Assembly (NCBI GenBank): GCA_903902345.1
Contig: CAIUUR010000232.1
Span: 1-43,658, forward strand
Reading direction: 5' to 3'
Length of the DNA stretch: 43,658 nt
Source of the DNA: an uncultured Geobacteraceae bacterium
GTDB lineage: Bacteria; Desulfobacterota; Desulfuromonadia; Geobacterales; CAIOGM01
Translations under genes and position numbers: made by a program
Shown: positions 4,808 to 39,194 of the stretch, one piece after another
How positions within the stretch are numbered: the first letter of the stretch is position 1
Layout of the letters: each line of letters opens with the position of its first letter
Notes under the pieces: model-generated
What the model was told of the DNA's origin: nothing
Databases searched by the model: none
Seen by the model: the letters and a program-made list of their open reading frames with translations, nothing else

Positions 4808-4913
4808 GGAGGAGTCACGCAACGAAATGCTTGGCGCCGAATTCCCGGCAGTTATCCCGGGGGCAGACCCGGCGTTTTCGACAGTTTCGGTTAAACCTCT
4901 AAAAAGCAGTCCA

Positions 4914-5060
4914 CCACTGAGACACGGAGACACTGAGGATAATCTTACACAGTTACTCAGGTTGCACGGACATACGTTATAAACTGGGTCAAACCTTCTG
5001 GGTTAAAACCAAGAACCAGATTTTCTCTGTGATTTCCTCCGTGTCTCCGCGCCTCAGTGG
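4914..5060. repeat. Paired inverted-repeat element (ccactgag...ctcagtgg)
   Basis: The left arm 4914-4933 and the right arm 5041-5060 are complementary at 18 of 20 positions. Each arm is built from GGAGACAC-like units. About 107 bp of AT-richer DNA lies between them. The outer flanks are A-rich on the left (AAAAAGCAGTCC) and T-rich on the right (AACCGTTTTTTGG), as in the elements at 37095-37397. It fills much of the gap between the DeoR-type gene and the Bat operon; the rest of 4808-5162 shows no convincing gene. Confidence 0.75.
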
Positions 5061-5162
5061 TTCAAAAACCGTTTTTTGGCTAAAGAATTACCGGTATCTC
5101 GCCGATGAGAGTAACAGGTGAATTCGGCCATGGCGACCTACCTGCAACGAAGGAGAACCGTA

Positions 5163-24832: not shown

Positions 24833-24941
24833 TTCTTATCAAGAGCGACCGAGGGACGGGCCCTACGACGTCGCGGCAACCTCCATCACGGAAGGTGCCA
24901 ATTCCCGCGGAAACGGGCGACCGTTTTCGGAAGATAAGGAA
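24833..24941 (+). ncRNA. SAM riboswitch (S-box, SAM-I type)
   Basis: The sequence has the S-box order: TTCTTATCAAGAGCGACC, GAGGGACGGGCCC, CGCGGCAACC, GGTGCCAATTCCCGC and a closing GGAAGATAAGGA. The P1 helix (TTCTTATC with GATAAGGA), the GGCAACC junction and the GGTGCCAATTCC helix are clear. It binds S-adenosylmethionine and turns off downstream methionine or cysteine genes when SAM is high. It precedes the first MetB/MetC-family gene, with a terminator between. Confidence 0.92.
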
Positions 24942-35239: not shown

Positions 35240-35878
35240 ATGCAGTCCTTTATCCTGATCGATTCCCCACTCTATCTCCGGGCGGAGGAGCTACCCTCTC
35301 CCACGCACTGGCCGGCGCTCTTCGGTAATGACAATCCCCTGGTCCTGGAGATCGGCGCGGGAACCGGCGATTTCGTCGCCAAGACTGCGGCGGATCACCC
35401 GCACCGGAACTTCATCGCCATTGACTACTACAACAAGGGGTGTTTCAAAACCTGTCGCCGACTGGAAAAACTGGGTCTTACCAACGTCCGGGTCCTACGG
35501 GAAGAAGCCCGGCAATTTCTCCTGGAGCGGATCTCCCCGGGCTCCCTGGTGGCGGTGCACATCAACTGTCCCGACCCCTGGCCCAAGAAACGCCACCGGA
35601 AAAGGCGGCTGGTGAACCGGGAGTTTCTGGTGTTTCTCCTCCCCTATCTTGCCCCCGGCGGCGACTTCTACTTCGCCACCGATTTTGATGATTACGGTAT
35701 CGACGTGGGGGAGTTCATGCCAGGGGTGGAGGGGATGACCAACATCCTTGCCCCTGACCCCCTCCGATACCAGCTGGAAGGGTACCACCTCTCCCGCTAC
35801 ATGGAGAAATTCATGGCCCAGGGAAAGAAGATCCATTACATCCACTACCGGAAGGTGAACCCATGTCCCGCTATCTGA
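35240..35878 (+). CDS. trmB: tRNA (guanine-N7)-methyltransferase TrmB
   Basis: This 212-residue SAM-dependent methylase has [20 protein letters not shown] (SAM loop), [40 protein letters not shown] (PDPWxKxRHxKRR is the TrmB hallmark) and [10 protein letters not shown]. It makes m7G46 in tRNA. ATG 35240 begins [11 protein letters not shown] and sits near GAGGCGCC; an in-frame extension to 35081 has no TrmB-like sequence. The end overlaps truD by 16 bases, so two tRNA-modifying enzymes are coupled. The 171 bp before it hold nothing recognised. Confidence 0.93.
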
Positions 35879-37059
35879 CGGCTGAAATTCCCGGAACGGG
35901 AGGGCTCTTCAAGGAGACCGACGAGGATTTTCGCGTCACCGAGATCCCCGCCTACCTCCCCTGCGGCGAAGGTGAGCACCTTTACCTGGAGATTGAGAAA
36001 CGGGGGATCACGACCCCCGAAGCGATCAAGAGGATAAGTCGCGCCCTGGGGGTTCAGGAACGGGAGATCGGCTACGCCGGGATGAAGGATAGCAAGGGAA
36101 TCACCCGGCAGACCCTCTCCCTCCCCCGGGTTCGCCCGGAGGTCGCCCTGGGGCTGGAGCTCCCCGGCATCACCCCCCTGAACGCCGTCTTTCACAAAAA
36201 CAAGCTCCGGCTGGGGCATTTGCGGGGAAACCGGTTCCGGATACTGGTTCGCGGCGTCACCCAGGGCGCCGCGGAGTACGCCGGTGAAACCCTCAGGATA
36301 CTGGAGCAGCGGGGAGTTCCCAACTTCTTTGGCGCTCAACGGTACGGCGTTCAGGGGAATTCGCACCTCATCGGCGCGGCTCTCCTCCGTCGGGATTTCC
36401 GGGGTGCGGTGAATGCTCTCATGGGGGATCCGGCAGGGATTACCGACGCGCGGTGGCGGGAAGGGGTGGAGGCATACCATCGGGGGGAGTACGAAGAAGC
36501 GGTTAGGCTCCTTCCCGGATTCTGTCGCACCGAGCGAGAGGTGGCCCAGCGCCTCGCCCAGCGCCCCGACTTCTTCGAGGGTGCGCTGCGGGCCGTCAAC
36601 CCCCGGCTGCAGAAGCTCTATCTCTCCGCCCTTCAATCGTGGCTCTTTGACAAGCTGCTGGAGGAACGGCTCCCCACCTTCGACACGGTGGAGGAGGGGG
36701 ATCTTGCGTACCGGCACGACAACGGAGCCTGCTTCCTTATCACCGATGCCGCCGCCGAAGCCCCGCGGGCAGCCAGACAGGAGATCTCCCCTTCAGGGCC
36801 TCTCTTCGGCTGCAAGACCACCCCTCCCGCCGGGATCGTACGGGAACGTGAGGAACGAACACTGGCGGAGGAGGGACTTTCACCGGAGCAGTTCGACCTT
36901 CCCGGCGGCCTCCGGATGGAAGGGGAACGCCGTCCTTTCCGGATTCTGCTGGAAGGTACGGAAATGTCCCAGGAGGGGAGCGACCTCGTCCTCTCCTTCA
37001 CTCTGCCCAAGGGGGCTTACGCCACGGTTGTGCTGGGGGAAATAATTAAGTGCTACTAA
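35863..37059 (+). CDS. truD: tRNA pseudouridine synthase TruD
   Basis: This 398-residue protein has [20 protein letters not shown], the catalytic aspartate in [36 protein letters not shown] and [20 protein letters not shown]. These are the standard TruD motifs for pseudouridine at position 13 of tRNA-Glu. The insertion domain is present. It starts within the last codons of trmB. A repeat-rich gap follows. Confidence 0.95.
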
Positions 37060-37094
37060 TTTTTTAGGACATTCATTCTAAAACGGCTGTCAAT

Positions 37095-37220
37095 CACGCG
37101 GAGACTCGGATCGCGGAGAAATTCAAGACGTTAGGAGCCATGATGCCAGGACCGGTCAGGTGAAAGAAGATGCAACAGTAATCACCTTGTTTTGCTTGGC
37201 TTTCTCCGCGTCTCCGCGTG
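37095..37220. repeat. Paired inverted-repeat element A (cacgcggag...ctccgcgtg)
   Basis: The left arm 37095-37121 equals the reverse complement of the right arm 37201-37220 except for a 7-base insertion (TCGGATC) in the middle. The outer flanks are A-rich on the left (TAAAACGGCTGTC) and T-rich on the right (CAACTGCTTTTTT). Between the arms is a 79-bp AT-richer stretch. Confidence 0.75.
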
Positions 37221-37256
37221 CAACTGCTTTTTTGCGTTCATCCCAAAAAAGCTGTC

Positions 37257-37397
37257 CCTCGCAGAGTTCGCAGAGAAAAACTCGGTAAATCATAAAGATA
37301 TGAATCATATGCCGGCAGAGGATCATCACCTGATCAGTGAAAATCTTGTCGAACTTAACTAGCTGACCTTCTTGGTTTCTCTGCGAGCACTGCGAGA
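37257..37397. repeat. Paired inverted-repeat element B (cctcgcagag...ctctgcgag)
   Basis: The left arm 37257-37278 and the right arm 37376-37397 are complementary at 19 of 22 positions. The outer flanks are AAAAAAGCTGTC on the left and AAACTGCTTTTTTT on the right, the same as element A although the arm sequence differs. The two elements together fill the gap between truD and the sigma-54 activator gene (37060-37463), where I see no gene. Confidence 0.75.
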
Positions 37398-37463
37398 GAA
37401 ACTGCTTTTTTTAGGTTCATATGTTTTGATTCTGTGATCTGTGGCGAGCTGCATTTTCCGGAT

Positions 37464-39194
37464 TTATGCCCGGCAGATACAGTATTTACGCATCCGGGCG
37501 CGCAGGGTGCTGGGGTTGAGCCCCAGGATGACCGCCGCCCCCTCTTTCCCCTCCACGCGCCATCCGGTTTTTTGGAGCACCCTGAGGATATGGTGCTGTT
37601 CCAGTTCGGCCAACTCCTTGATAGCTTCCCCCTCCGCCCCCGGTCTACTCCGCGACCGATCCCGCCAGTCGAAGATCTCCAACGCCTTCCCCGAACTGGT
37701 GATTACCCCCCGCTCAACAATACTCTCCAACTCCCGCACGTTGCCGGGCCAACTGTACCGTGAAAAATTATCCAGGGTATCCTTTGAGACGGTCTCGATC
37801 TCCTTCCCCATTTTTTTGTTGAATTTGGCGACGAAATAAGAGACGAGAAGCGGAATATCTTCCTGACGTTGCCGGAGGGGTGGAACCAGGATGGGGAACA
37901 CATTGAGACGGTAGAACAGATCTTCCCGAAACCGACCGTTACGGATCTCATCTTCAAGGTTCCGGTTGCTGGCCGCGATGATTCTGACGTTGACCTTTAT
38001 CGTGCGGGGCCCCCCCAGACGCTCGAACTCGCCGTCCTGTATGACCCGGAGCAGCTTGCATTGCAGATCCAGCGGCATCTCGCCGATTTCGTCAAGAAAG
38101 ATGGTCCCCCCGTCTGCCAGCTCGAACCGCCCGATCTGCCGTTCATTGGCGCCAGTAAATGCTCCCCGTTCACGCCCGAAGAGCTCGCTTTCGATGAGAC
38201 TCCCCGGCAGGGAGGCGCAGTTCACCGTTATCATGGGGCGCTCCTTACGGGTACTCCTGCTATGAATGGCACGTGCGACAACCCCCTTGCCGACCCCGGT
38301 CTCTCCCGTGAGCAACACGGTGGCGTTCATGGGCGCCACCTGTTTGATCTTGAGGAAGACAGAGGAGATGGCGCTGCCGCCCCCGATAATATCGCCGAAA
38401 TTGTATTGTTGGGCATCCTCCTGGCGCAGATAGATATTTTCCGCCTGGAGCCGATCCTTCAGCTCCGTTATTTCCGCATACGCATCAAGGAGTGACCCTT
38501 CGGCCCTGCTCCGTTCGCTGATTTCATGGGTGAGCTGTTCCACGGCCCGGCTCAACTCTCCGGTCCGTTCGGCAACCCTCAATTCCAGATCATCGTGAAC
38601 TCGAAGGAGCGCACCCTCGGCTTGCCGGCGTCCGGTAATATCCAGAACCGCCGCGCGACACTCCTCCCCCGAACCGAAGGCAACGGCCTCGATCTGTACA
38701 AAAAGCGGGGAACTCCCCTCCCGCACAAGCTCCACTTCACACGAGCAGTTACCCTCTCCGGCAAAGACCTTCCCAAGATAGTCACTGAAGCGTGGTCGGA
38801 CCTCATCGGCGACATACTTCCCGAATCGCCGGCCGATGAGCCTGGAGCGTTCACACCCCAGGTAGGTGGCGCCGGTCAAATTGACGCTTCCGATGGCTCC
38901 GTCCCGCCCCAGGGTAAAATACCCCACCGGCGCGAAATCGTAGAGATCGGCATACCTCTCCAGCGTCACCTCCACCTCGTACCTGGCCCGCTGAAGCTCG
39001 GCGTTCTGCATCTCCAGTTCGATCTGGTGGACCTGCAGTTCCTGAAGCAGTCGCTGGGCGGCATCCTTGCTATGGAGCTGCTCCCCTTCAGGCGCATCCG
39101 GTTCCAGCAGCTCCTCGGCACGACGACACAGGGAAGGGGGCGGCTGGACCGTTTTGCCTGAATGATCAGCACCCTGCCGGTTGCCGTTTCCCAT
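37464..39194 (-). CDS. PAS-domain sigma-54-dependent transcriptional activator
   Basis: This 576-residue protein has an N-terminal coil (QELQVHQIELEMQNAELQRA). A PAS domain follows (about 85-195, DFAPVGYFTLGRDGAIGSVN), then a coiled linker and a sigma-54 AAA+ domain (about 265-500) with Walker A GETGVGKG, the sigma-54-contact loop GAFTGA and Walker B GGTIFLDEIGEMP. It ends in a Fis-type helix-turn-helix (EGAAVILGLNPSTLRARMRK). There is no receiver domain; the PAS domain is the likely sensor. The gene starts 2 bases after the stop of cheB-cheR, so the two are coupled. It might serve the sigma-54 promoter at 21478, but this is not shown. Confidence 0.93.
   Translation of the reverse strand: MGNGNRQGADHSGKTVQPPPSLCRRAEELLEPDAPEGEQLHSKDAAQRLLQELQVHQIELEMQNAELQRARYEVEVTLERYADLYDFAPVGYFTLGRDGAIGSVNLTGATYLGCERSRLIGRRFGKYVADEVRPRFSDYLGKVFAGEGNCSCEVELVREGSSPLFVQIEAVAFGSGEECRAAVLDITGRRQAEGALLRVHDDLELRVAERTGELSRAVEQLTHEISERSRAEGSLLDAYAEITELKDRLQAENIYLRQEDAQQYNFGDIIGGGSAISSVFLKIKQVAPMNATVLLTGETGVGKGVVARAIHSRSTRKERPMITVNCASLPGSLIESELFGRERGAFTGANERQIGRFELADGGTIFLDEIGEMPLDLQCKLLRVIQDGEFERLGGPRTIKVNVRIIAASNRNLEDEIRNGRFREDLFYRLNVFPILVPPLRQRQEDIPLLVSYFVAKFNKKMGKEIETVSKDTLDNFSRYSWPGNVRELESIVERGVITSSGKALEIFDWRDRSRSRPGAEGEAIKELAELEQHHILRVLQKTGWRVEGKEGAAVILGLNPSTLRARMRKYCICRA

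Follow-up and report, generated by a model that had tools for sequence, protein, structure and literature searches.

Elements A, B and C, three non-coding hairpins in a 43,658-nucleotide window of an uncultured Geobacteraceae bacterium, combine two modules that appear to have different partners. The window is contig 232 of the 568 that make up a draft genome of 4.9 Mb. We lean towards the explanation that the three are non-autonomous two-module elements, in which the outer ends are moved by a transposase and the inner arms are a probable target of the GxxExxY protein (PF13366). The elements carry marks of mobility, the two arms of an element match each other, and arms of the same kind are associated with GxxExxY genes. 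Similar arms surround GxxExxY genes in many bacteria and archaea, and for this reason the arms may be what GxxExxY recognises. That A and B belong with MITEs is known ground; the link between arms and GxxExxY appears new as judged by the CC-licensed PMC literature, in which (supplements aside) we found neither a connection between GxxExxY and repeats nor a paper that gives the arm sequences in print. GxxExxY is a widespread, uncharacterised family, and a link to a recognisable DNA or RNA hairpin would open its role to a direct biochemical test.

Structure of elements A, B and C

A and B are adjacent and lie between two convergent ORFs (35863-37059 on the + strand and 37464-39194 on the − strand). 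Direct reading gives the order TTCAT, A (37077-37236, + strand), TTCAT, B (37242-37415, + strand), TTCAT. The first TTCAT (37072-37076) is the left-hand repeat of the target duplication that flanks A, as judged from sequence reading and the duplication statistics of the whole family; the second (37237-37241) is common to A and B and the third (37416-37420) is the right copy. Each element is about 160-175 bp long. Their outer ends are alike, approximately CCTAAAAA on the left and TTTTTAGG on the right, and the right end common to both (37212-37233 versus 37390-37411) agrees at 82%. The inner arms differ. Element A has arms of the CGCGGAG type, and its full-length relatives in the own genome are 75-80% identical. 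Inverted-repeat comparison places its left arm at 37095-37127 (+ strand; CGCGGAG, a decayed middle unit, CGCGGAG) and its right arm at 37195-37220 (− strand; two CGCGGAG units); the arms pair as 37095-37110 with 37205-37220 and as 37112-37127 with 37195-37210. Element B has arms of the CGCAGAG type and a 92% identical copy at G000:C114 (L026). By the same comparison its left arm, with two CGCAGAG units, is at 37255-37278 (+ strand) and its right arm at 37376-37399 (− strand), both 24 nt long and 88% complementary.

The original prediction of two tandem elements with common outer ends and different inner arms is confirmed by direct reading and repeat comparison. The span it gave, 37080-37408, marks the right site and is slightly short, the real limits being 37077-37415. 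The related pattern it noticed at 4914 is element C (4896-5079, + strand), which has the plan and the ends of A and B and arms of the CACGGAG/CACTGAG type. C is flanked by an imperfect target duplication (TTAAA/CTAAA), and two sister species are without it.

Both A and B fold better than their shuffled sequences. The z value is −2.46 for A, where 1 of 200 shuffles was as good, and −5.18 for B, where none of 200 was. Rfam gave no match at A, B or C; its match in the window is a SAM (S-box) riboswitch at 24833-24940 on the + strand, outside the three elements.

A family with common outer ends and different arms

Searches of the own genome with A and B as queries led to 41 places, and with C to 56. 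Sixty places from these searches were fetched with flanks and compared with A, B and C, and they make up three subfamilies, which have the outer ends in common and differ in arms and interiors. The elements are about 150-185 bp long, non-coding and multicopy, and in 35 of 63 copies the terminal inverted repeats CCTAAAAA/TTTTTAGG score 6/8 or better at both ends; both are features of MITEs. Twenty further places were chosen from outer-end matches. Nine of them turned out to be complete elements with new arm types, namely CACGAAA (L119, L120, L127), CACGAAG (L124, L125, L129) and CACAGAG (L131, L134, L137). Four places hold one-sided or cut elements (L118, L126, L130, L132), two hold unlike elements (L121, L128), and at five (L122, L123, L133, L135, L136) there is no element. 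The genome holds scores of copies with at least six arm types. Recovery of the nine complete elements through their ends bears out the expectation of a family in which the outer ends are conserved and the arms change.

The outer end alone exceeds chance when it is searched strictly. Exact CCTAAAAANNGCNGT occurs 11 times in the own genome versus 2 times for the reversed control, and on reading 10 or 11 of these 11 matches lie in or beside armed elements; AACTGCTTTTTT at up to 1 mismatch was found 70 times versus 43 in the comparison with chance. At up to 2 mismatches CCTAAAAANNGCNGT is not enriched (357 versus 752 for the control), and the loose outer-end search, which gives fewer matches than its control and from whose lists came the five places that proved to be without an element, was rejected as a family finder. 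The expectation that outer ends are more frequent than chance therefore holds for strict ends and fails for loose ones, so that the evidence for the family rests on ends, arms and target duplication together.

Mobility

The elements are flanked by a 5-bp target duplication of the form WTNAW, scored on the 35 copies with two good ends. Identical flanking 5-mers were found in 7 of the 35, compared with a mean of 0.6 and a maximum of 4 in 2000 shuffles. The inner TNA is equal on both flanks in 16 copies (shuffles: mean 4.5, maximum 11), and the flanks are alike at 4 or more of the 5 positions in 17 (mean 4.2, maximum 11). About 1.2 Mb of sequence from two sister species allowed orthologous sites to be compared 13 times, at 9 own loci; partial orthologous matches at L026, L052, L077 and L128 stand outside these 13. 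In 11 of the 13 comparisons, C in both species included, the site is without the element, the intergenic DNA being too diverged for base-exact empty sites. In one, element L073 is present in both species. In another (L075 versus L261) the sister element has CACAGAG arms; those in the own genome are of the CACGGAG type, and a CACAGAG right arm is retained there further on. L075 looks like an insertion into, or a recombination with, another element, and arm replacement or nested insertion is possible. Taken together, the target duplications and the 11 of 13 comparisons without the element indicate a MITE-like family.

In the stretches read, no transposase gene lies between CCTAAAAA/TTTTTAGG-type outer ends. 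An A-type element at L278 (G000:C40, 384-1843) has its outer ends around an AAA_14/DUF4143 ATPase gene, which is not a transposase, and a possible 4-of-5 target duplication (TTTAA/ATTAA). This gene, together with the right outer end of a GxxExxY cassette at L013, indicates that the outer module can carry genes.

Could the hairpins have been kept instead as bidirectional transcription terminators or small RNAs, with compensated change reflecting selection on the RNA fold? The location of A and B between convergent ORFs, the T-runs after the arms and the strong folds of both elements agree with such a role. However, most of the orthologous sites compared are without the element, target duplications are present, many copies have decayed, and A, B and C have no Rfam match. 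Moreover, the link to GxxExxY would be left unexplained. We consider a terminator or small RNA role improbable.

Matching of the arms

The arms are built from a 7-nt unit, CRCNRAN, which is repeated in tandem two to four times at a spacing of 1-3 nt. The arm-matching test started from 72 elements, and leaving out 5 with units on one side only gave 67. In 58 of these the most frequent unit of the left arm is found again in the right arm (shuffle mean 20.3, maximum 31). Part of this matching reflects common descent within subfamilies. The clearest single case of coordinated unit loss or gain is a GxxExxY cassette that occupies one locus in four species, where both arms in one species (G002) are shorter by one 8-nt repeat than in the other three. 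In the C subfamily the pairing of arms is loose, and C/T/G changes at position 4 of the unit are often unmatched; compensation thus takes place between arm types and in unit number, not base by base.

These results agree with two proposals of the original prediction, that arms change in a compensated manner and that they change by tandem units: the first is seen in the 58 matched elements and the second directly at the orthologous locus. A third proposal, that a 7-base insert in one arm of A marks a recent change, had to be abandoned. The left arm once had a third tandem unit, and the insert is what remains of it. Three units on the left with two or one on the right is the commonest state of the A subfamily, found at 11 of 22 A-type places, and because a third left unit is so common there, the insert is not evidence of recent change.

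GxxExxY genes between the arms

The own genome has six PF13366 matches at five loci, and TIGR04256 matches three. The genes at L009-L011 have both the profile match and the PD-(D/E)XK residues. A, B and C hold no GxxExxY gene between their arms and would be gene-less relatives of such cassettes. Within the genus, each locus was scored by its best inverted repeat in the 300 bp to either side, leaving out three short fragment matches in G003 (L097-L099). A score of at least 12 was reached at 14 of 16 GxxExxY loci (L012 and L091 fail) and in 1 of 28 shifted windows.

For a wider comparison we used the best 80 GxxExxY loci from a scan of named genomes, 77 of which have enough flank. The 80 come from Planctomycetota, Chloroflexota, Acidobacteria, Bacteroidota, Cyanobacteria, Proteobacteria, Verrucomicrobia, Spirochaetota, Methanosarcinales and others. 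An inverted-repeat score of at least 12 was found at 60 of the 77 versus 12 of 276 shifted windows on the same contigs, the other 17 of this best-80 set being without inverted arms by score. A score of 12 or higher is also reached by 262 of 1527 swapped flanks, because the CRCNRAN unit is common to all. A stricter test requires tandem units in the standard orientation on either side of the gene; it is passed by 58 of the 77 loci and by none of the 276 control windows. Among the rest, 2 have units in the opposite orientation only, 13 on one side only and 4 none. Protein identity and unit similarity are correlated over 70 loci (rho 0.27, 0 of 1000 permutations as high). The correlation is 0.23 for pairs under 60% identity, and with the GC difference removed the partial correlation is 0.28 (0 of 1000 permutations). 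Joint inheritance is enough to produce it, which means that arm and gene travel together and not that one reads the other.

Arms and gene also co-occur across the phylum. Of 297 genomes, 44 have a three-unit arm pattern, for which the reversed control gave 0 matches in each genome listed, and 111 have PF13366. Among genomes with arms 34 of 44 have PF13366, versus 77 of 253 without arms (odds ratio 7.8, p = 1e-8, kinship ignored). It is important to note that the pattern spans only CACNGAG units and so undercounts arms. PF13366 is found in 20 of the 23 genomes with at least 4 arm matches. The three without it (G148 with 13 arm matches, G231 with 11 and G022 with 6) are among the 10 of 44 arm-pattern genomes that have no PF13366 match, and they suggest another partner gene or loss of the gene. 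In the own genome no GxxExxY gene matches the B-type or the CACAGAG-type arms.

GxxExxY cassettes are mostly without CCTAAAAA-type outer ends; the cassette at L013, of the CACGAAG type, has a recognisable right outer end. The usual lack of these ends suggests that the two modules may have been independent mobile entities that came together, and outer and inner modules may have separate histories. The same lack would also be expected if the elements were ordinary MITEs of a DDE insertion sequence targeting TNA/WTNAW, their arms an incidental stem and the GxxExxY link a product of common intergenic preference. Terminal inverted repeats, target duplications, sister-species sites without the element and the many decayed copies all fit such MITEs, and we regard this explanation as unlikely but serious. 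It does not account for arms that stand in one orientation around GxxExxY in many phyla, as in the 58 of 77 loci of the best-80 set versus 0 of 276 windows, nor for the correlation of arm type with the GxxExxY protein. In addition, the stretches read have no transposase between such ends.

It is also conceivable that the arms serve GxxExxY as regulatory or immunity sites, such as an operator or an antitoxin-like RNA, that the cassettes are immobile, and that A and B are what is left where a GxxExxY gene has been lost. Arms do adjoin the gene on both sides, and one cassette is found at a single orthologous locus in four species. The interiors of A, B and C, however, are family-specific and 75-90% conserved between copies, ORF remnants are not apparent in them, and element copies far outnumber GxxExxY genes. 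Our results make such a regulatory origin very improbable.

A predicted nuclease and a possible mechanism

Among 40 GxxExxY sequences, E22 (of GxxExxY), D62, E72, K74 and Q86 are invariant and Y90 is nearly so. We take this residue layout to be that of the RecB/Cas4-type PD-(D/E)XK nucleases, with QxxxY as third motif. An AlphaFold2 model of the protein has a pLDDT of 94.8. The nearest solved folds by Foldseek are SSO0001, presumably a Cas4, and lambda-type phage exonucleases, with weak E-values (best 5.9e-3), and no solved relative was found by sequence at E 1. GxxExxY is thus predicted from its sequence to be a minimal RecB/Cas4-like PD-(D/E)XK nuclease. The accessible text of a paper on reverse transcriptases has one GxxExxY call where another tool gave cas4 (PMC8934634).

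As two-module elements, A, B and C probably work as follows. The outer module, common to all arm types, is the pair of short terminal inverted repeats, which insert with the 5-bp WTNAW duplication and are presumably cut in trans by a transposase encoded elsewhere. The inner module is the hairpin with its tandem CRCNRAN units, and its arms may be the binding or cleavage site of GxxExxY, as a DNA cruciform, a single-strand hairpin or an RNA hairpin. A, B and C would be gene-less passengers that kept the site, comparable to REP elements and RAYT genes. The matching of arms could arise if cutting or strand switching is followed by repair in which one arm serves as template for the other; an altered unit, or an altered number of units, would then show on both sides.

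More tentatively, and with more doubt than confidence, we suggest that GxxExxY and CRCNRAN arms form the cognate pair of a cosmopolitan class of selfish hairpins in bacteria and archaea. The nuclease would cut hairpins of its own arms, and hairpin-templated repair would spread gene-less copies and rewrite both arms in concert. If this is true, it would add to RAYT/REP and IS200/IS605 a third type of partnership between a protein and a hairpin. The link between arms and nuclease would also explain an intergenic repeat class in many phyla and inverted arms that change in sequence yet stay complementary.

Likeness to known systems

A search for a RAYT-type tyrosine transposase had been suggested. 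The four Y1_Tnp matches that a profile search found in the genome, and the occurrence of the elements as extragenic hairpins in high copy, are what one would expect of REP-like repeats whose movement depends on a Y1 (tyrosine) REP transposase. Yet none of the 4 RAYT loci examined is flanked by CRCNRAN arms, and the gene that is associated with such arms is GxxExxY. The RAYT-like Y1_Tnp genes at L023 and L024 come with separate GGGGACGTAG-type repeats, which stand upstream; L023 has an inverted copy downstream as well. Moreover, the family of A, B and C has a target duplication, and RAYT movement of the IS200/IS605 type is not known to make one. We give the REP/RAYT explanation hardly any credence. 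The GxxExxY system resembles REP/BIME and RAYT in that a low- or single-copy gene is bracketed by inverted hairpin arms and many gene-less hairpins are found elsewhere; it differs in having a PD-(D/E)XK nuclease (PF13366) in place of a Y1 transposase, target duplications, and arms made of tandem units.

Other known repeats share some of these features. Chunjie, a MITE of Geobacter uraniireducens, is described in the accessible part of a review (PMC10969869), and by that description it is, like our elements and other MITEs, short, non-coding and intergenic, with terminal inverted repeats, target direct repeats and many copies, partial ones included. Unlike MITEs so described, the present elements have a two-module plan in which the outer ends are constant and the arms, made of tandem 7-nt units, can be exchanged, and these arms match those around a nuclease gene. 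The intervening sequences of 23S rRNA with their S23/IVP protein, as far as the available text on the Coxiella IVS goes (PMC4990558), are also small selfish elements with one protein of about 100-130 aa, but the protein is another one, and the IVP genes found here (L015-L017) adjoin other, heptamer-like repeats. The TAACTGA repeats of Beggiatoaceae are intergenic tandem 7-nt units in high copy; in the part of the report available to us (PMC4679880) they are mostly direct repeats upstream of genes, unlike the two inverted arms described here. Finally, the 'multicopy nucleotide sequences' of Geobacter (PMC2996986, PMC2700814) include families of intergenic palindromes and of heptanucleotide repeats from related bacteria, and the accessible text of these papers, supplementary tables aside, names no nuclease gene with them.

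Neighbouring repeat systems

The three IVP/four-helix-bundle genes (PF05635) at L015, L016 and L017 adjoin repeats of roughly 7-nt units, AACCCTG, TTGAATG and AACTGGT. At L015 the repeats make inverted arms around the IVP gene (1397-1430 and 1861-1894, 34 nt, 94%). A second family of small proteins, IVP (PF05635), may have the same architecture. In a sister species (L104, G002) the orthologue of the ORF to the left of A and B is followed by another type of hairpin, with ACAGGAT-like units.
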